A stretch of DNA of 36,256 bases from an uncultured Pseudomonadota bacterium (GCA_903921785.1 CAIXRH010000011.1:1-36256), one strand, 5' to 3'. Shown: positions 1,324-19,538, counted from the stretch's first letter. Translations and numbers: made by a program. Notes: generated by a model not told the origin, from the letters alone.

Positions 1324-3132
1324 CTAAGCCCGCACCCTCCCCTCCCCCAGCCGCTTCGTCACCCCGCGTGCATCCAGCCACTCCAACAGCGGGATCGCGG
1401 TCCGGCGGCTCTGGCCGGTGAGCTCCTTGAACGCCGAAGGATCGAGCGTGGGGTGACCGTCGAACCAGGCGCGCACGGCCGCGCTGAGCCGCTCGAGGAC
1501 GCTGGCGGCGTAGATGCGCCCGGCCACGAGGTCGATCTCCCCGCGGTCCCGGATCAGGAACACCAACGCGTCCCGATCGGGACGCTCGGGCGCCGCCTCC
1601 AGGCCGTCGTAGCCGGCGGCCTCCGCCGCGGCGATCGTCGCCTTGCGCCACGCTTCCTGCGCCGCGTCGAGCTTCACCACCCAGCCGGGGAGCCGCACCC
1701 GCCCCCCCTCGAGCACCACCCGCCCCGCCCCGGCTTCCGCGTCGAGGAACGCCAGGAACGCACGATCGTCCAGGGACTTGAGCAGCCCCGCCTGCACCGC
1801 CTTGCGATTGAGCCCAGGGGTGAGCGGCTCGGCGGCGTGGCGCTCGGCGAGCGTCTGCGCCAAAACCTCGCGCATCTCCGCGACCCGACCTACCGGATAC
1901 CGGCGTTCGCCGAGGCGGACCCCGAGGAGGACGCCCGCGCGTTGCAGGCACTCGGCGTCGGTGAGGCCCGCCGCGTCCATCCGCTCCACGAAGACCTCCT
2001 TGTCGCCGGCCGCGAGGCGGTCGAGCTCCACGATCGCCTCCGCCTGCCGCTTCTTCCGCGCGACGGGCGCCCAGGGGTCCACGATCGCCCCGCCGCCCAC
2101 CGTGAGCGACGGCGACGCCCGGCGGACGACGAAGCGGTCGCCGGGGAGGCAGGGGAGCGGCTCCGAGAGGTGCAGTTGGACCCACCCCGACCAGCCGGGC
2201 TCCAGCCCCTCGGCCCCGAGGGGGACCACGCGCCCGGCAACCTCGCGGGTGCCATGAAGCACCACCACTCCAGGTTCGCCGACGAGGATCGGCGCGTCGT
2301 CAAGGTGGGTGTATCGGGCGTCGATCACCAGGGCGTCGGGCATCGAGCCGGGCGCGACGACCCAGAATCCACGTCCGACCTCCTCGATCTCCACCCCGGT
2401 GAGGTTGAGCGCCACCCGGGAGCCCGCATGGGCCTCCGCCACCGACTGGCCGTGCACCTGAACGCCCCGTACGCGAGCCCGCTCCCCGCCGGGGAGCAGC
2501 TCCACCTCGGCGCCATCCTTGAGCCGGCCGTTCCAGGCCGTGCCGGTGATCACCGTTCCGAAGCCCTTTCTCACGAAGGCGCGGTCGACGGGGAGGCGGA
2601 ACGGGCGGTCGAGCTCCCGGTGGGAGCTGGGGAGCGCGTCCAGGGCCGCGAGCAGCTCCGGGAGGCCGCGCCGGGTGACGGCGCTCGTCGCCACGATCTG
2701 CGCGTTTGGCCAGGGGGTGCCGGCGAGCACCTCCCGAAGCTCCTCCGCCGCCAATTCGAGGAGCTCGTCGTCCACCTGGTCGGCCATCGTCTGCGCGACC
2801 ACCAGATGGGGGACGCCGAGGAGGCGCAGCACGTCGAGGTGCTCGCGCGTCTGGGGCATGACGCCCTCCACGGCGCTGACGCAGAGCATCACGGCGTCCA
2901 TGCCGCTGGCGCCAGAGACCATGGTTCGCACGAGCTTTTCATGCCCGGGCACGTCCACGAGCCCGGCGATGCGGCCGCTGGGGAGCGGCAGGGGCACGAA
3001 CCCCAGCGCGATGGTGATGCCGCGCGCCTTCTCCTCGGGCAAACGGTCGAGATCGACGCCGGTGAGCGCCTTGACGAGGGTGGTCTTGCCGTGGTCGACG
3101 TGACCCGCGGTCCCCAGCACGAGGTCGGACAT
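1324..3132 (-). CDS. selB: Selenocysteine-specific elongation factor SelB
   Basis: A translational GTPase that delivers selenocysteyl-tRNA(Sec) to UGA codons marked by a SECIS hairpin. The 602-residue product is close to the usual bacterial SelB length. The G1 loop GHVDHGKT sits at residues 10-17, followed by RGITIALGF and the G3 motif DVPGHEKL. Next come EF-Tu-like barrel domains (for example RAFVRKGFGTVITGTAWNG) and a C-terminal winged-helix region ending in TGQSRRTAIPLLEWLDARGV, as expected for SECIS binding. The G4 motif is odd: where SelB normally has T/N-K-x-D, this protein reads QTMADQVD, with Met in place of the base-stacking Lys. The start ATG is 39 nt from a divergent gene. No selA, selC or selD lies in the window. 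The gene implies that the organism makes selenoproteins. Confidence 0.93.
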   Translation of the reverse strand: MSDLVLGTAGHVDHGKTTLVKALTGVDLDRLPEEKARGITIALGFVPLPLPSGRIAGLVDVPGHEKLVRTMVSGASGMDAVMLCVSAVEGVMPQTREHLDVLRLLGVPHLVVAQTMADQVDDELLELAAEELREVLAGTPWPNAQIVATSAVTRRGLPELLAALDALPSSHRELDRPFRLPVDRAFVRKGFGTVITGTAWNGRLKDGAEVELLPGGERARVRGVQVHGQSVAEAHAGSRVALNLTGVEIEEVGRGFWVVAPGSMPDALVIDARYTHLDDAPILVGEPGVVVLHGTREVAGRVVPLGAEGLEPGWSGWVQLHLSEPLPCLPGDRFVVRRASPSLTVGGGAIVDPWAPVARKKRQAEAIVELDRLAAGDKEVFVERMDAAGLTDAECLQRAGVLLGVRLGERRYPVGRVAEMREVLAQTLAERHAAEPLTPGLNRKAVQAGLLKSLDDRAFLAFLDAEAGAGRVVLEGGRVRLPGWVVKLDAAQEAWRKATIAAAEAAGYDGLEAAPERPDRDALVFLIRDRGEIDLVAGRIYAASVLERLSAAVRAWFDGHPTLDPSAFKELTGQSRRTAIPLLEWLDARGVTKRLGEGRVRA

Positions 3133-14642: not shown

Positions 14643-15206
14643 ATGGCGCATGACCCGCTGCGGATCCGCGGCCTGTACGGCATGGCCGACGCCACGTTCG
14701 GAGACCCGGTCGTGCAAGCCTTGATGCTCGCGGAGGAGGGCATCAGGCCCGTCCAACTCCGCTGCAAAGGCTGGTCCGTCGAGGCCGTGCGCGCGGCCGC
14801 GCTCGCCCTGTCCGAGGTGCCCGCCCTGGTGATCAACGACCACGCGGCGCTCGCCTTGGAACTGGGCCGGGTCGCCCACCTCGGCGACGGGGACGGCGCC
14901 GCGACCGGTCCCCACGGCCGGAGCACCCACACCCTGGAGCAGGTCCGAACCGCGGGAGATGCGCTCTACCTCGGCTTTGGCCCAGTGTTTTCAACTGGCA
15001 CCAAGGAGACGGGCTGGCCACCTCGGGGGGTGGAGCTCCTCGCCGAGGCGGTGCGCGTGGCCGGCAGGCCCGTGGTCGCCATCGGTGGGATCGAGCCCTC
15101 GAACCTGGACGCTGTCCGGGCGACAGGCGTCGCGGGGTGGGCCGTGGTGGGCGCGATCTGGCGGTCGTCCGACCCGCGCGCGGTGATCCGATCCCTGCGC
15201 GGATAG
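14643..15206 (+). CDS. thiE: Thiamine-phosphate synthase (ThiE/TenI family)
   Basis: Joins hydroxymethylpyrimidine pyrophosphate and the thiazole phosphate to give thiamine phosphate in the cytoplasm. At 187 residues it is somewhat shorter than the usual ~210, but the family motifs are in order: LYGMADATFGD, PVQLRCKGWS (the Q-L-R-x-K diphosphate-binding strand), ALVINDHAALA, VAHLGDGD (usually VHLGQxD), HGRSTHTLEQ, YLGFGPVFSTGTKETG, and PVVAIGGI. TenI homologues look similar but usually lack the intact substrate loops, so ThiE is favoured. The ATG lacks a strong ribosome site. No TPP riboswitch or other thi genes are present nearby. The next gene starts 11 nt downstream. Confidence 0.85.
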   Translation: MAHDPLRIRGLYGMADATFGDPVVQALMLAEEGIRPVQLRCKGWSVEAVRAAALALSEVPALVINDHAALALELGRVAHLGDGDGAATGPHGRSTHTLEQVRTAGDALYLGFGPVFSTGTKETGWPPRGVELLAEAVRVAGRPVVAIGGIEPSNLDAVRATGVAGWAVVGAIWRSSDPRAVIRSLRG

Positions 15207-15217
15207 AGGTCCGGGTG

Positions 15218-15682
15218 ATGGTGCTGCTCCTCCTCCCCGCCCTCGCGCTATCCGCCGTGCCGAGCGAGCAGGACCTGTTCGCCGCGCTCCTCGCCCGCAT
15301 GGACGCCGACGGTGACGGGGAGCTCAGCCGCGCGGAGTACACCCCGTTCGACGGCTCCAGCACCTTCGACGACATCGACGCCGACCGCGATGGCTCGGTC
15401 TCCGCCGCCGAGCTCGGCGCGTGGGTGAAGGTGACCCAGCCCCGCCCCCTGGACCGCCCGCCGCGGACGGTCGCCGCGATTGCCAGCGGCGAAGGCACGC
15501 CGTCGTTCGCGTCGCTGTCGGCGACGCCGCCCGTGGCGGCGGCGGGGAGCCCACCGTCTGCGACCGACGGATCGACCTCCGCCCGTTGGCTCACCCGGGT
15601 CCTGGTGCTCGGGACCATGACGATCGTCGCCGCGGTCGGCGCCTCCGTGATCTTCCGGATTCCGACCCGCCGTCGTCGCTGA
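15218..15682 (+). CDS. Exported two-EF-hand membrane-anchored protein
   Basis: A signal peptide (MVLLLLPALALSAVPS) precedes two canonical EF-hand loops: DADGDGELSRAE at residues about 28-39 and DADRDGSVSAAE at about 53-64. Both have Asp/Glu at the calcium-ligand positions, so calcium binding outside the cytoplasm is likely. A Ser/Thr/Ala/Pro-rich stretch then leads to a C-terminal transmembrane helix (VLVLGTMTIVAAVGASVIF) and RIPTRRRR, a helix-then-arginine end like that of MYXO-CTERM proteins but without the Cys. The ATG has GAGGT at good spacing; it lies 11 nt after thiE. Another EF-hand protein lies convergently at 15993-16493. Confidence 0.8.
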   Translation: MVLLLLPALALSAVPSEQDLFAALLARMDADGDGELSRAEYTPFDGSSTFDDIDADRDGSVSAAELGAWVKVTQPRPLDRPPRTVAAIASGEGTPSFASLSATPPVAAAGSPPSATDGSTSARWLTRVLVLGTMTIVAAVGASVIFRIPTRRRR

Positions 15683-15702: not shown

Positions 15703-15996
15703 CTACCTGCGCGGCGGCGCTGCACTCACCGGGGCCGGCCCCACCGCCGGCGCTTCCGCCAGCGACGGCGGCTCCCCCGGGCGCGGCGGCCGCGCACCGA
15801 CGATCGGGGGTCCGGACGGCGCGTGCGACGAGGCTGCGAAGCGCGCGGCGATCTCCGCGAGGAGCGCGGACGAGGGGTCCGGGCCGGGGAGCGTGGGCGG
15901 AGGGGCCGTCGGAGGCAGGTTGGCGCTCGCGCCGGCGGGTAGGGGTGGCGGCGATCCGGGGCCAGGGCAGCCCAGGAGCAGGCAGAGGAGGATCAC
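15703..15996 (-). CDS. Small proline-rich lipoprotein
   Basis: The 97-residue product begins MILLCLLLGC, a lipobox with lipid-accepting Cys at residue 10. The remainder is rich in Pro, Ala and Gly (PPPLPAGASANLPPTAPPPT) with one short helical segment, SSALLAEIAARFAASS. This looks like an extended outer-membrane-attached spacer or anchor. The GTG start overlaps the TGA of the EF-hand lipoprotein gene by 4 nt, so it is the last member of an overlapping four-gene series. No function can be assigned. Confidence 0.65.
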   Translation of the reverse strand: MILLCLLLGCPGPGSPPPLPAGASANLPPTAPPPTLPGPDPSSALLAEIAARFAASSHAPSGPPIVGARPPRPGEPPSLAEAPAVGPAPVSAAPPRR

Positions 15997-16493
15997 GGGA
16001 TTCCCTCCGGCCACGTCCACCCGTGCGCGCTCCAGGCAGGACGGAGCGCGGCGAACGCGGCACGGGAAGGAGCGCTGGTGAACGAGCCGCTCTCCACCGC
16101 CGCCGCTACCTGCGCCGGATCGAGGCCGGGTTCGCCGACCGAGCGCTCCGCGTCGTCCATCCAGACCAGCACCTCCCAGAGCTGCTTCGCTTCGCCCTCC
16201 GGCGTCCGGACTCCGGCGCCCGCGCGCGCGACCGGCCCCGACTCCACGGCCCCGTCGAAGTGGGTCGGCGACTGCGCCGCCACCAACGCCGAGAGCTCCG
16301 CCGCGGACAGGTCGCCGTCGCCGTCGAGGTCGGCGGAGCCCATCGGCGGGCCGTTCCAGAGATGCCCCTCGTACTCCCCGGCGTCCACCCGGCCGTCGTG
16401 ATTGGTGTCGAGCCACGCGCGGTGCCCCGCGAGCGCGCCGGCCTCGGTCCAGGAGGGGGGCGGCGCACACGCGAACATCCAGACGAGCATCAC
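15993..16493 (-). CDS. EF-hand lipoprotein
   Basis: The product begins MMLVWMFACAPPPSW, with a probable lipid-bearing Cys at residue 9. Two EF-hand loops follow: DTNHDGRVDAGE and DLDGDGDLSAAE, both with the expected acidic ligands. The C-terminal 90 residues are helical and unassigned (AKQLWEVLVWMDDAERSVGE, then PSRAAFAALRPAWSAHGWTW). It is expected to bind calcium at the cell envelope. The start is GTG (overlapping the sulfatase-like gene's stop as GTGA) or the ATG directly after it. It is overlapped at its 3' end by the proline-rich lipoprotein gene. Its EF-hand pair resembles that of the convergent gene at 15218-15682. Confidence 0.8.
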   Translation of the reverse strand: MMLVWMFACAPPPSWTEAGALAGHRAWLDTNHDGRVDAGEYEGHLWNGPPMGSADLDGDGDLSAAELSALVAAQSPTHFDGAVESGPVARAGAGVRTPEGEAKQLWEVLVWMDDAERSVGEPGLDPAQVAAAVESGSFTSAPSRAAFAALRPAWSAHGWTWPEGIP

Positions 16494-17821
16494 CGTGCCT
16501 CCACGTAGGCCCGCATCGCGGCGCGGAGGGTCGGCTCGGCGGCGGGGTCTCCCCCCAACCGGAGCGACACGCCGTCCAGCGGCGCGACGGCGAGCAGCGC
16601 GTCGAGGTGGGGATTGTCGACGCTGAGCCCCTCCGCCGTGAGCCGTGCGGTGGGTCCGCGCACGCTCAGCAGGCGGAGCGCCCCGACGCTCACCGCCGTC
16701 GATCGGGCAACCTCTTCGCCGCCTTCGATACCCCGAACCAGCGATTGACCGTCGCCGTAGAGCGCCGCATCCACCCCCGCGAGGTCAAGCAGCGTCGGCG
16801 CCACGTCGACGAGCTCTACGAGCCCGGTCAGCCGACGCCCGCCGTGCGCGCCGCCCGGGAGCCGCACCATGAGCGGTACGCGGGTGACCGCGTCGTCCAG
16901 CGTGGCGCGGTGGGCGAAGACGCCCCCTTCGCCGAGCTCCTCTCCGTGGTCCGAGAGCACGACGATCGTGATCCGGTCGAGCAGGCCCCGCGCGTCGAGC
17001 CCCGCCATGAACCTCCCGAAACAGGCGTCCTCCCACGCGACGGCGCCATCGTAGAGCGCGGCCAGATGCAAAACGTCCGCCTCCGAGAGCGGCGCCGCCG
17101 TCGGGTCCAGCTCACGCACCGCGCGTCCGTGGTCGAAGCGCGGCGACGCGGCCAGTAATTCCGGGGTGTCGGGCCGCTCGGTCCACGCGCCGCCGAGCAC
17201 GGACGACGCCCCGCCCACGGTGCGTCCGAGGCGGGCGCCGAGGCCCTGGTCGCCGGGATCGGCGAAGGCGTAGCCGAAGGGGCTCGGCCGCAGGTATCGA
17301 TCGTGGGTGTCGTACGCGTGCACGAACAGGAAGAACGGAGCTTCTCCCTGGCGGGTGTCGAGCCAGTGCAAGGCCAGGGCGCTGGTCTCCCGGAGGGACC
17401 CCCAAGACGAGGTGTCGTCCCATTGAGCGAAGCCCCGATCCAGCCCGAAGCTGCGCGAGAGATGCCCGCCTGCGACGAAGCCCGCGGTCGCCCAGCCGGC
17501 GCCGGTGAAGGCGTCGGCGAGGGTGGGCGTGGAGGCGGGGACCCGGAACGTGCCGTCCATCGCGTCGAGGCGGTCGGGGTAGCGCGACGTGAACAGCGCG
17601 GCGTGGGAGTAGAGGGTCTCGTTGCTCTGGGCGAACGCCCGGTCGAAGACCACGCTCTCCGCGGCGAACCGGTCCAGGTTGGGCGTGAGCCCGGCGGTGC
17701 TACCCCACGCGCCGAGGCGATCGGCGCGGAGCGTGTCGAGGCTGACGACGAGGATCCCGGCGCGCTGCGGCGGGGCCGCGCAGGCCCCAAGCAAGACGGC
17801 GATGGGGACCCGCCACCTCAT
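16490..17821 (-). CDS. Sulfatase-superfamily lipoprotein with Thr in place of the catalytic Cys
   Basis: An alkaline-phosphatase-superfamily hydrolase. The start MRWRVPIAVLLGACAAPP gives a lipoprotein signal (Cys14). Metal-binding elements are visible: VVSLDTLRADRLGAWG (Asp29) and VVLSDHGEELGEGGVFAHR. At the nucleophile site, true sulfatases have Cys/Ser-x-Pro-x-Arg; here the aligned segment is TLYSHAALFTSRYP, with Thr69 at that place. A formylglycine nucleophile therefore cannot form, and a Thr-type phosphotransferase or phosphodiesterase mechanism is more likely. It is probably anchored in the outer membrane or periplasm. The ATG overlaps the regulator gene's TGA (ATGA) and its own stop overlaps the EF-hand lipoprotein start. 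Substrate unknown. Confidence 0.85.
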   Translation of the reverse strand: MRWRVPIAVLLGACAAPPQRAGILVVSLDTLRADRLGAWGSTAGLTPNLDRFAAESVVFDRAFAQSNETLYSHAALFTSRYPDRLDAMDGTFRVPASTPTLADAFTGAGWATAGFVAGGHLSRSFGLDRGFAQWDDTSSWGSLRETSALALHWLDTRQGEAPFFLFVHAYDTHDRYLRPSPFGYAFADPGDQGLGARLGRTVGGASSVLGGAWTERPDTPELLAASPRFDHGRAVRELDPTAAPLSEADVLHLAALYDGAVAWEDACFGRFMAGLDARGLLDRITIVVLSDHGEELGEGGVFAHRATLDDAVTRVPLMVRLPGGAHGGRRLTGLVELVDVAPTLLDLAGVDAALYGDGQSLVRGIEGGEEVARSTAVSVGALRLLSVRGPTARLTAEGLSVDNPHLDALLAVAPLDGVSLRLGGDPAAEPTLRAAMRAYVEAR

Positions 17822-19005
17822 TCGCTGGACGCGCTCACACCCAGCCGGGAGAGGTGGGCCTGTAAGGTGTTGCGCGCCACCCCCAGCAGCCGCGCGGCGG
17901 CTTTCCGGTTTCCCTGGGTTCGCGCCAGGGTGAGGCGGAGGAGCGCACGCTCCGTGGCGTCGACGATGAGGGCGTGCAGGTCGGTGCCGCCCGCGGCGTG
18001 CCAGCCCTGGACGACCGCGGCGAGACGCGCGGCCACCATCTCCTCGTAGCCTTCGAGGTCGGCGCGGGGCGCGGGACCTTCGGGATCGAGCCGGGCGCGC
18101 AGGGTTGGCGGCAGATGCTCAGGCTGAACGACCTCCGTCGGAACCGCAGTGAGCACGTCCTGGATGAAGCGCTCCAGCTCGCGTTCGTTCTGGGGCCACG
18201 TCCACGCCTGCATCAGCACCACGAGCTTCCGCCCGAAGCGGCGGCGCGGCTGCCCGAGCCGACGCGCGCACACGTCCACGAAGTGGTGGATGAGCGGGGC
18301 GAGCACCTCGGGGCGCTCACGCAGCGGCGACAGGGTGAGCACGAGGTCCGCGGAGACGTCGACGGGAGCGCGGCTCGCGACCACCACCCGCCAGCCGGCC
18401 CGACGAGCATCCTCCGCGCGAGCACCGACCTCGGTGAGGAGATGGGCGGCCTCGAAGTATACGAAGCCCGGCTCCCCCTCGGGTCGCCACGCGGTCCCCG
18501 GGGGCACCACCACGAACGCACGACCGGGCATGGCCAACCGGTGGATCAACCGGGCGATCGGCTCCTTTCCGGTGCCACGCGGCCCGACGATGAGCACCAA
18601 CCCGCGGCCGCCTGCAGCCTTGGACACGACCTCGCCCGCCCGCTCTCCCAGCCCGGTGTAGCGTAGCCGCGTCTGGAGCTCGTCGGTGCGGCGTCGTCCC
18701 GCGGCACGGCGAAGGAGCACCCCGAGCGGCGCGGGGCGCGCCCGAACGGCGGGGATCGTGGCGACCGGCTCGTCGATCGAGCGGAGCTGGGGCCGGTGGG
18801 GCAGGGACGCGGCCAGCTCCACCAGAAGGGGCGCGACCAACCCGGGCAACGCAGGGTCGACGATCACCACCCGGGTCGCCGGATCGACGACCCGGGCGAG
18901 CAGGCCCGGCCAGTCGGCCACCGCCACCACCCCGGCCACGCCGGTCGCGAGCGCGGGGAGCCAGCGCGCGCGGACGGGCTCCCGATCGGTGGCGAGGACG
19001 AGCAC
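17818..19005 (-). CDS. NtrC-like transcription regulator with degenerate AAA+ domain and Fis HTH
   Basis: The 395-residue protein has a receiver-like N-terminus with a possible Asp50 (TRVVIVDPALPG). Its AAA+ domain keeps Walker A (GPRGTGKE, residues 141-148), but the Walker B region reads FVYFEAAHLL instead of the usual LFLDEI, losing the catalytic Glu. The GAFTGA sigma-54 contact loop is absent. LSPLRERPEVLAPLIHHFV and WTWPQNERELERFIQDVL match the sensor and arginine regions of the NtrC family. The C-terminal Fis-type HTH is intact: TQGNRKAAARLLGVARNTLQ. It probably binds DNA but does not activate sigma-54 polymerase by ATP hydrolysis. The start is GTG. Its stop overlaps the sulfatase-like gene start by 4 nt, so it may control that cassette. 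Confidence 0.82.
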   Translation of the reverse strand: MLVLATDREPVRARWLPALATGVAGVVAVADWPGLLARVVDPATRVVIVDPALPGLVAPLLVELAASLPHRPQLRSIDEPVATIPAVRARPAPLGVLLRRAAGRRRTDELQTRLRYTGLGERAGEVVSKAAGGRGLVLIVGPRGTGKEPIARLIHRLAMPGRAFVVVPPGTAWRPEGEPGFVYFEAAHLLTEVGARAEDARRAGWRVVVASRAPVDVSADLVLTLSPLRERPEVLAPLIHHFVDVCARRLGQPRRRFGRKLVVLMQAWTWPQNERELERFIQDVLTAVPTEVVQPEHLPPTLRARLDPEGPAPRADLEGYEEMVAARLAAVVQGWHAAGGTDLHALIVDATERALLRLTLARTQGNRKAAARLLGVARNTLQAHLSRLGVSASSE

Positions 19006-19031
19006 GAGCCCCGACTATCGCGGCGGGCGGC

Positions 19032-19538
19032 TCACTCCGAACAGTCGATCAACGAGGCGATGTCCCAGGCGTAGCCGGGCAGGGTGGGGCCGAGCACGAC
19101 GTTCGCGACGCTGCCGCACTGCACCGTGGGGGTCTCGGCGTAGAACGACCAGGTTCCCTCGGCCAGCAGGAAGTCGCGGACCTCGCCGGGCGCCATGGGG
19201 CTCGCGCCGTCGACCAGCACCTGGTAGTCACCGGAGACGGAGTCGGCCGCGTCGAGGAAGTCGATCGCCTCGTCGAGATTGTTGGTGACCTCGAGGTACA
19301 GGGGCTCGATCGTGGGGCCGGTATCCACCGCGGTGTCGCCAGTGTCCGCCCCGGTGTCCGCCGTGTCGTGGCCGGTTTCGCTGGTGTCGGCGCCGGTGTC
19401 CGCCGTGTCCGCGCCGGTGTCCACCGCCGAGTCCCCTCCGTCGGCGGTGTCGGCGGGCGACGCGGTGTCCCCGGCAGCCGTGCCGCATCCGGCGAGGAAG
19501 GCGGTGAGGCAGAAAGGCAGCAGCAGACGCGCAGTCAG
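19032..19538 (-). CDS. Lipoprotein with Asp-Thr-Gly linker, apparent CTG start
   Basis: The frame has a clear lipoprotein leader, LTARLLLPFCLTAFLAGCGT, then an Asp-Thr-Gly/Ala linker to about residue 75. An ~95-residue C-terminal domain follows: YLEVTNNLDEAIDFLDAADS, MAPGEVRDFLLAEGTWSFYA, and GYAWDIASLIDCSE, possibly a small beta-sandwich with a Cys pair. No ATG, GTG or TTG lies in frame between the leader and an upstream TAG. The only candidate is the CTG at 19538, which has GGAGG four bases before it. A nearby out-of-frame ATG (19555) would join this frame if the C5 run at 19538-19542 gained one base. The regulator gene starts 26 nt downstream, so this may be the first gene of that unit. 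Confidence 0.72.
   Translation of the reverse strand: MTARLLLPFCLTAFLAGCGTAAGDTASPADTADGGDSAVDTGADTADTGADTSETGHDTADTGADTGDTAVDTGPTIEPLYLEVTNNLDEAIDFLDAADSVSGDYQVLVDGASPMAPGEVRDFLLAEGTWSFYAETPTVQCGSVANVVLGPTLPGYAWDIASLIDCSE
19320..19478 (-). repeat. Asp-Thr-Gly linker repeat DNA (lipoprotein 19032-19538)
   Basis: Imperfect 9- to 12-base units encode D-T-G/A-D-T repeats on the minus strand. Unlike the linkers at 4236-4365 and 23826-23945, this one uses GC-rich codons (GAC ACC GGC), so it seems older or better adapted to the genome's codon use. Confidence 0.8.

Follow-up and report, generated by a model that had tools for sequence, protein, structure and literature searches.

The DNA analysed here, referred to as the window (36,256 nt), is part of contig C11 in a genome of 7.48 Mb and 362 contigs. 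The host is probably a lake-dwelling, uncultured relative of the myxobacteria, and we infer its placement in the Myxococcota. Four minus-strand ORFs were confirmed (17818-19005, 16490-17821, 15993-16493 and 15703-15996). As the initial annotation had described, they are joined by three 4-nt overlaps, at 17818-17821 (REG/SULF), 16490-16493 (SULF/EF1) and 15993-15996 (EF1/PRO), and a DTG-linker lipoprotein gene does lie 26 nt upstream of the regulator. Three of the ORFs gave Pfam matches: 16490-17821 encodes a sulfatase domain, 15993-16493 has EF-hands, and 17818-19005 combines an AAA lid with a Fis HTH. The features of the region are as follows.

14643-15206, plus strand: ThiE-like gene, left border of the putative inserted block, outside the module (thiE and REG are neighbours in nine same-genus genomes)
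15215-15682, plus strand: EF2, EF-hand protein with a Pro-rich linker, C-terminal hydrophobic helix and Arg tail, convergent to the module (PF13202, alignment)
15703-15996, minus strand: PRO, short Pro-rich lipoprotein with a conserved core and a weak coding score (homologues after EF1)
15993-16493, minus strand: EF1, lipoprotein of 166 aa, EF-hand pair plus conserved C-terminal three-helix domain (PF13202, alignment, model, profile search)
16296-16331, minus strand: EF1 EF-hand loop 2, DLDGDGDLSAAE (sequence, alignment)
16374-16409, minus strand: EF1 EF-hand loop 1, DTNHDGRVDAGE (sequence, alignment)
16490-17821, minus strand: SULF, sulfatase-fold (alkaline phosphatase superfamily) lipoprotein of 443 aa (PF00884, model, structural matches, orthologues)
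17615-17617, minus strand: codon of Thr69, the predicted nucleophile, in the motif NETLYSH (aligned with Cys of solved sulfatases)
17818-19005, minus strand: REG, AAA+/Fis protein without GAFTGA, right border of the putative inserted block, outside the module (Pfam, position in relatives)
19032-19538, minus strand: DTG-repeat lipoprotein, outside the module (few weak relatives; not upstream of REG in relatives)

Lipoprotein status was judged by eye from the lipobox pattern. The start of the DTG gene is probably the CTG at 19538, given a GGAGG motif and the open frame. PRO scored weakly as coding, and its call rests on conservation. EF2, a recurrent neighbour of the module, was absent from the cassette as initially drawn. 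Elsewhere in the window, a predicted minus-strand protein (1324-3132) resembles the selenocysteine translation factor SelB, which hints at selenoprotein use. Exact 4-nt overlaps turned out to be commonplace: of the neighbouring genes that run in the same direction, 115 of 387 pairs across the loci read and 6 of 17 within the window overlap in this way, so we rejected them as a special sign.

Fold and nucleophile of SULF, and its EF-hand neighbours

SULF scored 117.9 bits against PF00884 (cut-off 25), and its predicted structure (pLDDT 86, pTM 0.89) gave matches along almost the whole chain to sulfatases, phosphonate monoester hydrolases and the periplasmic domain of YejM (Foldseek E 1e-23; Z up to 36 over residues 18-443). 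Profile and fold both place the protein in the alkaline phosphatase superfamily. When SULF was aligned to solved sulfatases, T69 fell at the position of the formylglycine Cys and H73 at that of the following Arg. Of 107 sulfatase-fold homologues, 63 have Thr as nucleophile, 41 Ser and 1 Cys, and 98 have His in place of the Arg of C-x-P-S-R. D29, D291 and H292 are near-invariant across the same set, and the T69 position is Thr or Ser. SULF thus has the nucleophile and metal-ligand residues of the superfamily, with a predicted metal site. Because Cys occurs in only one homologue, the group does not consist of formylglycine sulfatases; with T69-x-x-S-H73 in place of C/S-x-P/A-x-R, assignment of SULF to the formylglycine-dependent enzymes was rejected. 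Assignment to LtaS- or EptA-type phospho-transferases failed as well, as SULF scored 20.5 bits against the LtaS NCBIfam equivalog (cut-off 970) and 18.7 against that of EptA (cut-off 660). Across the host genome (G000), PF00884 gave 43 matches, two pairs of which may represent split genes. The genome has undergone a large expansion of sulfatase-fold genes, and EF-hand pairing is confined to a small subset of them.

Both EF-hand proteins exceeded the PF13202 cut-off of 25.9 bits (29.2 for EF1, 38.5 for EF2). Each has a pair of canonical 12-residue Ca2+ loops, both of which are kept in the alignments, and EF1 and EF2 are predicted on this basis to bind Ca2+. In the EF1 model, the EF-hand pair leads through a disordered linker to three more helices. 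Its profile matched calmodulin and calcineurin B across the EF region; a fold search of EF1 gave no PDB match at E <= 0.001 and only weak EF-hand matches. Run over the whole genome, PF13202 gave 2 matches, both under the cut-off, the model being too short to inform.

Conservation of the SULF-EF1 pair

In 20 related loci from the same genus, family and order, EF1 comes after SULF, in most cases with the 4-nt overlap seen in the window, and a second SULF-EF1-PRO copy lies on contig C351 of the host genome. PRO homologues come after EF1 in five loci (L039, L040, L041, L042 and L045), while L047 has PRO fused onto the C-terminus of EF1. A convergent EF2 accompanies the module in L040, L041, L042, L043, L046 and L047. 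Judged from gene order, then, the conserved unit is SULF-EF1-PRO facing a convergent EF2. The block is intact at new sites, with outside neighbours that differ in almost every genome. The initial annotation had described a Thr-nucleophile hydrolase with a calcium-binding partner, and this part of it held: the order of the two genes is conserved well beyond close strains.

It is the partnership with EF-hand genes, not the overlaps, that goes beyond chance: 59 of 107 related sulfatase-fold genes, nearly all of them from the host's order, adjoin an EF-hand gene, compared with 39 of the 520 other genes in their loci, a background that is inflated because the loci were centred on sulfatase-fold genes. 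The scoring of adjacency combined a PROSITE-style pattern with a home-made gene caller, and these overlook some cases picked up by the EF1 profile. In a sample of 284 genomes from the phylum, that profile matched 22, every one in the host's order, and it gave 7 EF1-type matches in the host genome. No EF-hand neighbour was found for the sulfatase-fold genes of L072-L100, which come from Planctomycetota, Acidobacteria and others. In at least four proteins, a single ORF encodes an EF-hand pair on the N-terminal side of the sulfatase domain (L071 of UBA796, L173, L174 and L181). Distances between SULF proteins and between EF1 proteins correlate at 0.79 (permutation maximum 0.24), a value for which linkage alone could account.

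The side on which the EF-hand gene lies follows the nucleophile. Thr-type enzymes have an EF-hand gene downstream in 40 of 63 cases, two of them with one on both sides, and Ser-type enzymes have it upstream or fused in 14 of 41. One Thr gene and two Ser genes are exceptions. Across these loci, nucleophile type predicts the side of the EF-hand gene, which defines two subtypes by sequence and layout. No EF-hand neighbour was detected for roughly one in three Thr-type genes and more than half of the Ser-type genes, in part through a detection limit, since the EF1 profile places EF1 next to some of these; the EF partner may accordingly be dispensable. EF2 lies directly upstream of a same-strand Ser-type gene in L040, L043, L046 and L047, and is the partner type usual for the Ser-nucleophile sister enzymes. 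It has no sulfatase-fold gene of its own in the window, and likewise stands alone beside the module in L041 and L042. Elsewhere in the host genome, a Ser-type gene occurs with its EF-hand gene on contig C250 (locus L183).

The thiE-REG junction and other genomic neighbours

REG was matched in each of the 10 same-genus relatives and across much of the order, and is usually single-copy. In nine same-genus genomes it is convergent with thiE, and eight of these show an overlap of 20-50 bp between the two 3' ends. The five same-genus genomes with a SULF orthologue (G003, G004, G005, G006 and G009) carry REG on a different contig, and the gene upstream of SULF in relatives is mostly divergent. In no relative examined was REG or the DTG lipoprotein found adjoining SULF, and the latter has weak relatives in only 2 of 23 relatives and does not lie upstream of REG outside the window. 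Both were rejected as members of the cassette in which they had initially been placed. The expectation that gene order would be conserved outside close strains therefore stood for SULF-EF1(-PRO) and was refuted for the link to the regulator.

Only in the host genome does the module separate the two genes: the window has the end of thiE at 15206 and that of REG at 17818, and the 2611 bp between them hold EF2, PRO, EF1, SULF and nothing else. The simplest reading is that the module was inserted as a block at the thiE-REG junction. Since the module would have entered in this way, the SULF/REG overlap appears incidental, and on this gene-order evidence REG is a chance neighbour. The case illustrates how an insertion can produce a 4-nt translational overlap that misleads operon inference.

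REG itself (L229-L247 in relatives) is conserved; it is an AAA+/Fis protein whose AAA+ domain is shortened, and its gene adjoins thiE and, in many genomes, a LysM-motif gene. It matched PF00158 only over residues 125-159 and under the cut-off, and GAFTGA was not found in the AAA+ domain of the window protein or of 18 orthologues. REG does not qualify as a sigma-54 activator of the NtrC family, and the lack of GAFTGA in all 19 aligned sequences makes it unlikely to activate sigma-54 promoters in the usual way.

Other neighbours bear on function. MBOAT acyltransferases with a partner gene lie near paralogous units in L047, L052, L160, L163, L164 and L170, the calls (DltB-like) having been profile-tested in L047, L052 and L164. 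Sulfotransferase-family and arginine-deiminase-family genes lie beside Thr-type paralogues in L055 (2167-5567), L140, L157 and L172; these calls were profile-tested in L055 and are BLAST clusters in the other three. Counts of BLAST clusters are upper bounds because some loci are the same contig twice (L047 = L061, L042 = L062, L157 = L069). Proteins weakly similar to GDSL/SGNH esterases also occur near paralogous units. Taken together, the recurrent neighbours fit work on the envelope or on extracellular polymers, in keeping with the surface modification envisaged initially.

Several further observations concern these loci. The sulfotransferase and arginine-deiminase neighbours point to a possible sulfated or otherwise modified surface product. 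In L163, L164, L170 and L160, an MBOAT gene recurs beside sulfatase-fold genes together with its partner and two membrane proteins, one HTTM-like and one small. In L071 (5613-11506), which is partly masked, a further EF-hand gene and the genes of an MBOAT-like membrane protein and an AMP-binding enzyme precede the EF-hand/sulfatase fusion. Related MAGs in public databases go under the labels Deltaproteobacteria, Pseudomonadota, uncultured proteobacterium and, in some cases, Klebsiella pneumoniae; those with the last title that carry genes of this lineage are probably mislabelled (L061, L068 and L082; CAMAXZ010000063.1, CAMAWH010000109.1 and CAMAWH010000013.1).

Proposed mechanism and comparison with known systems

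Pairing, co-inheritance, fusions, fold, nucleophile type and insertion geometry were all read from sequence here. We give about an even chance to the reading that SULF is a phosphoester-type hydrolase or transferase with EF1 as its Ca2+-binding subunit. The functional unit would be SULF-EF1(-PRO). SULF, anchored in the envelope and equipped with a Thr nucleophile and a predicted metal site, would act by hydrolysis or transfer on a phosphoester-type group, or less likely a sulfoester, of an envelope or exopolysaccharide polymer. EF1 would be its cognate Ca2+-binding subunit, made in matched amount through translational coupling and kept next to SULF by a lipid anchor of its own. With Ca2+ bound, the EF-hand pair would then stabilise SULF or switch it on. 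Physical complex, calcium switching, reaction, substrate and envelope location are all things that we infer. More tentatively, and with the balance somewhat against it, the lineage may possess a class, specific to it, of two-subunit calcium-gated envelope phosphodiesterases or transferases, with a dedicated EF-hand subunit for each of the Thr and Ser subtypes, through which external Ca2+ would drive remodelling of surface polymers.

The closest rival, which we regard as rather improbable, makes EF1 a calcium-dependent tether instead of a regulator, with EF-hands that bridge Ca2+ and an acidic surface polymer and so hold a constitutively active SULF at its substrate. Lipoprotein signals on both proteins, the disordered linker that sets the EF-hands of EF1 apart from its helical domain, and a weak Pfam similarity of EF1 to dockerin would suit such a role, but the N-terminal EF-hand/enzyme fusions and the strict co-inheritance fit a subunit at least equally well. 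That SULF is instead a true sulfatase of sulfated surface glycans, for which EF1 supplies or buffers the active-site calcium, seems unlikely. The PF00884 match, the carbohydrate sulfatases among its closest solved relatives, the sulfotransferase genes near four distinct paralogue loci and the FGE-domain proteins encoded in the host genome are consistent with this idea; the loss of the formylglycine motif, with its Cys and Arg almost entirely replaced among the homologues, argues against it.

We think it very improbable that the four-gene cassette with REG forms a working regulated operon, as initially proposed. The REG/SULF overlap would permit a shared transcript in the host genome now, but the separate contigs, the conserved thiE neighbour of REG and the mostly divergent gene upstream of SULF in relatives all point the other way. 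Slightly less probable again is that the SULF-EF1 pairing is functionally meaningless, nothing more than a relic of old linkage. Neighbouring genes share history, and many sulfatase-fold paralogues have no EF-hand partner (43 PF00884 matches against 7 of the EF1 type), yet the block stays intact at new sites while its outside neighbours change almost everywhere, and fusions have arisen independently. The reading of EF1 as a Ca2+-binding subunit of SULF is the one we prefer.

Many genes annotated as sulfatases lack the sulfatase nucleophile, and our data suggest that the SULF group should not be so annotated. For this group, gene order, fusions and nucleophile-linked layout define a concrete, testable enzyme-subunit pair. 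To our knowledge, separate EF-hand subunits of bacterial enzymes have rarely been described. Our literature search found no account of the SULF-EF1 gene pair, only parallels.

Calcineurin and calmodulin-type subunits offer an analogy in how they work: there, too, a separate EF-hand protein adjoins an ester hydrolase. EF1, however, is a bacterial lipoprotein with one EF-hand pair and a three-helix domain, and the enzyme is unrelated. LtaS and EptA use a Thr nucleophile. Enzymes of the LtaS/EptA/YejM type share a sulfatase-like periplasmic domain with SULF (that of YejM matches at Z about 31), but SULF has no membrane-spanning domain and falls far under the NCBIfam cut-offs. Formylglycine S1 sulfatases and phosphonate monoester hydrolases resemble SULF in whole-chain fold (Z about 30-36) and differ in having C-x-P-S-R where the SULF group has (T/S)-x-x-S-H.

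The NPP ectonucleotide pyrophosphatases/phosphodiesterases belong to the same superfamily and share the Thr nucleophile (PMC6052110). An EF-hand-like Ca2+ site is important in NPP1 and NPP3, a precedent for Ca2+ support of a Thr-nucleophile enzyme; the corresponding site is dispensable for activity in NPP2, which counts against it (PMC6052110). In these enzymes, unlike SULF-EF1, the Ca2+ loop belongs to a nuclease-like domain of the same chain, with no separate EF-hand subunit, and the active site holds two zinc ions (PMC6052110). Also comparable in composition are the EF-hand/sulfatase fusion proteins reported in Verrucomicrobiae (PMC7016017). Both systems combine an EF-hand dyad with a sulfatase domain, and fusions occur here too. 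Here, however, the two parts are mostly encoded by overlapping genes and made as two lipoproteins, in another phylum and in layouts tied to Thr or Ser. An association of EF-hands with sulfatase domains has thus been reported before, and the separate-gene lipoprotein pair with its two layouts appears to be the new variant.
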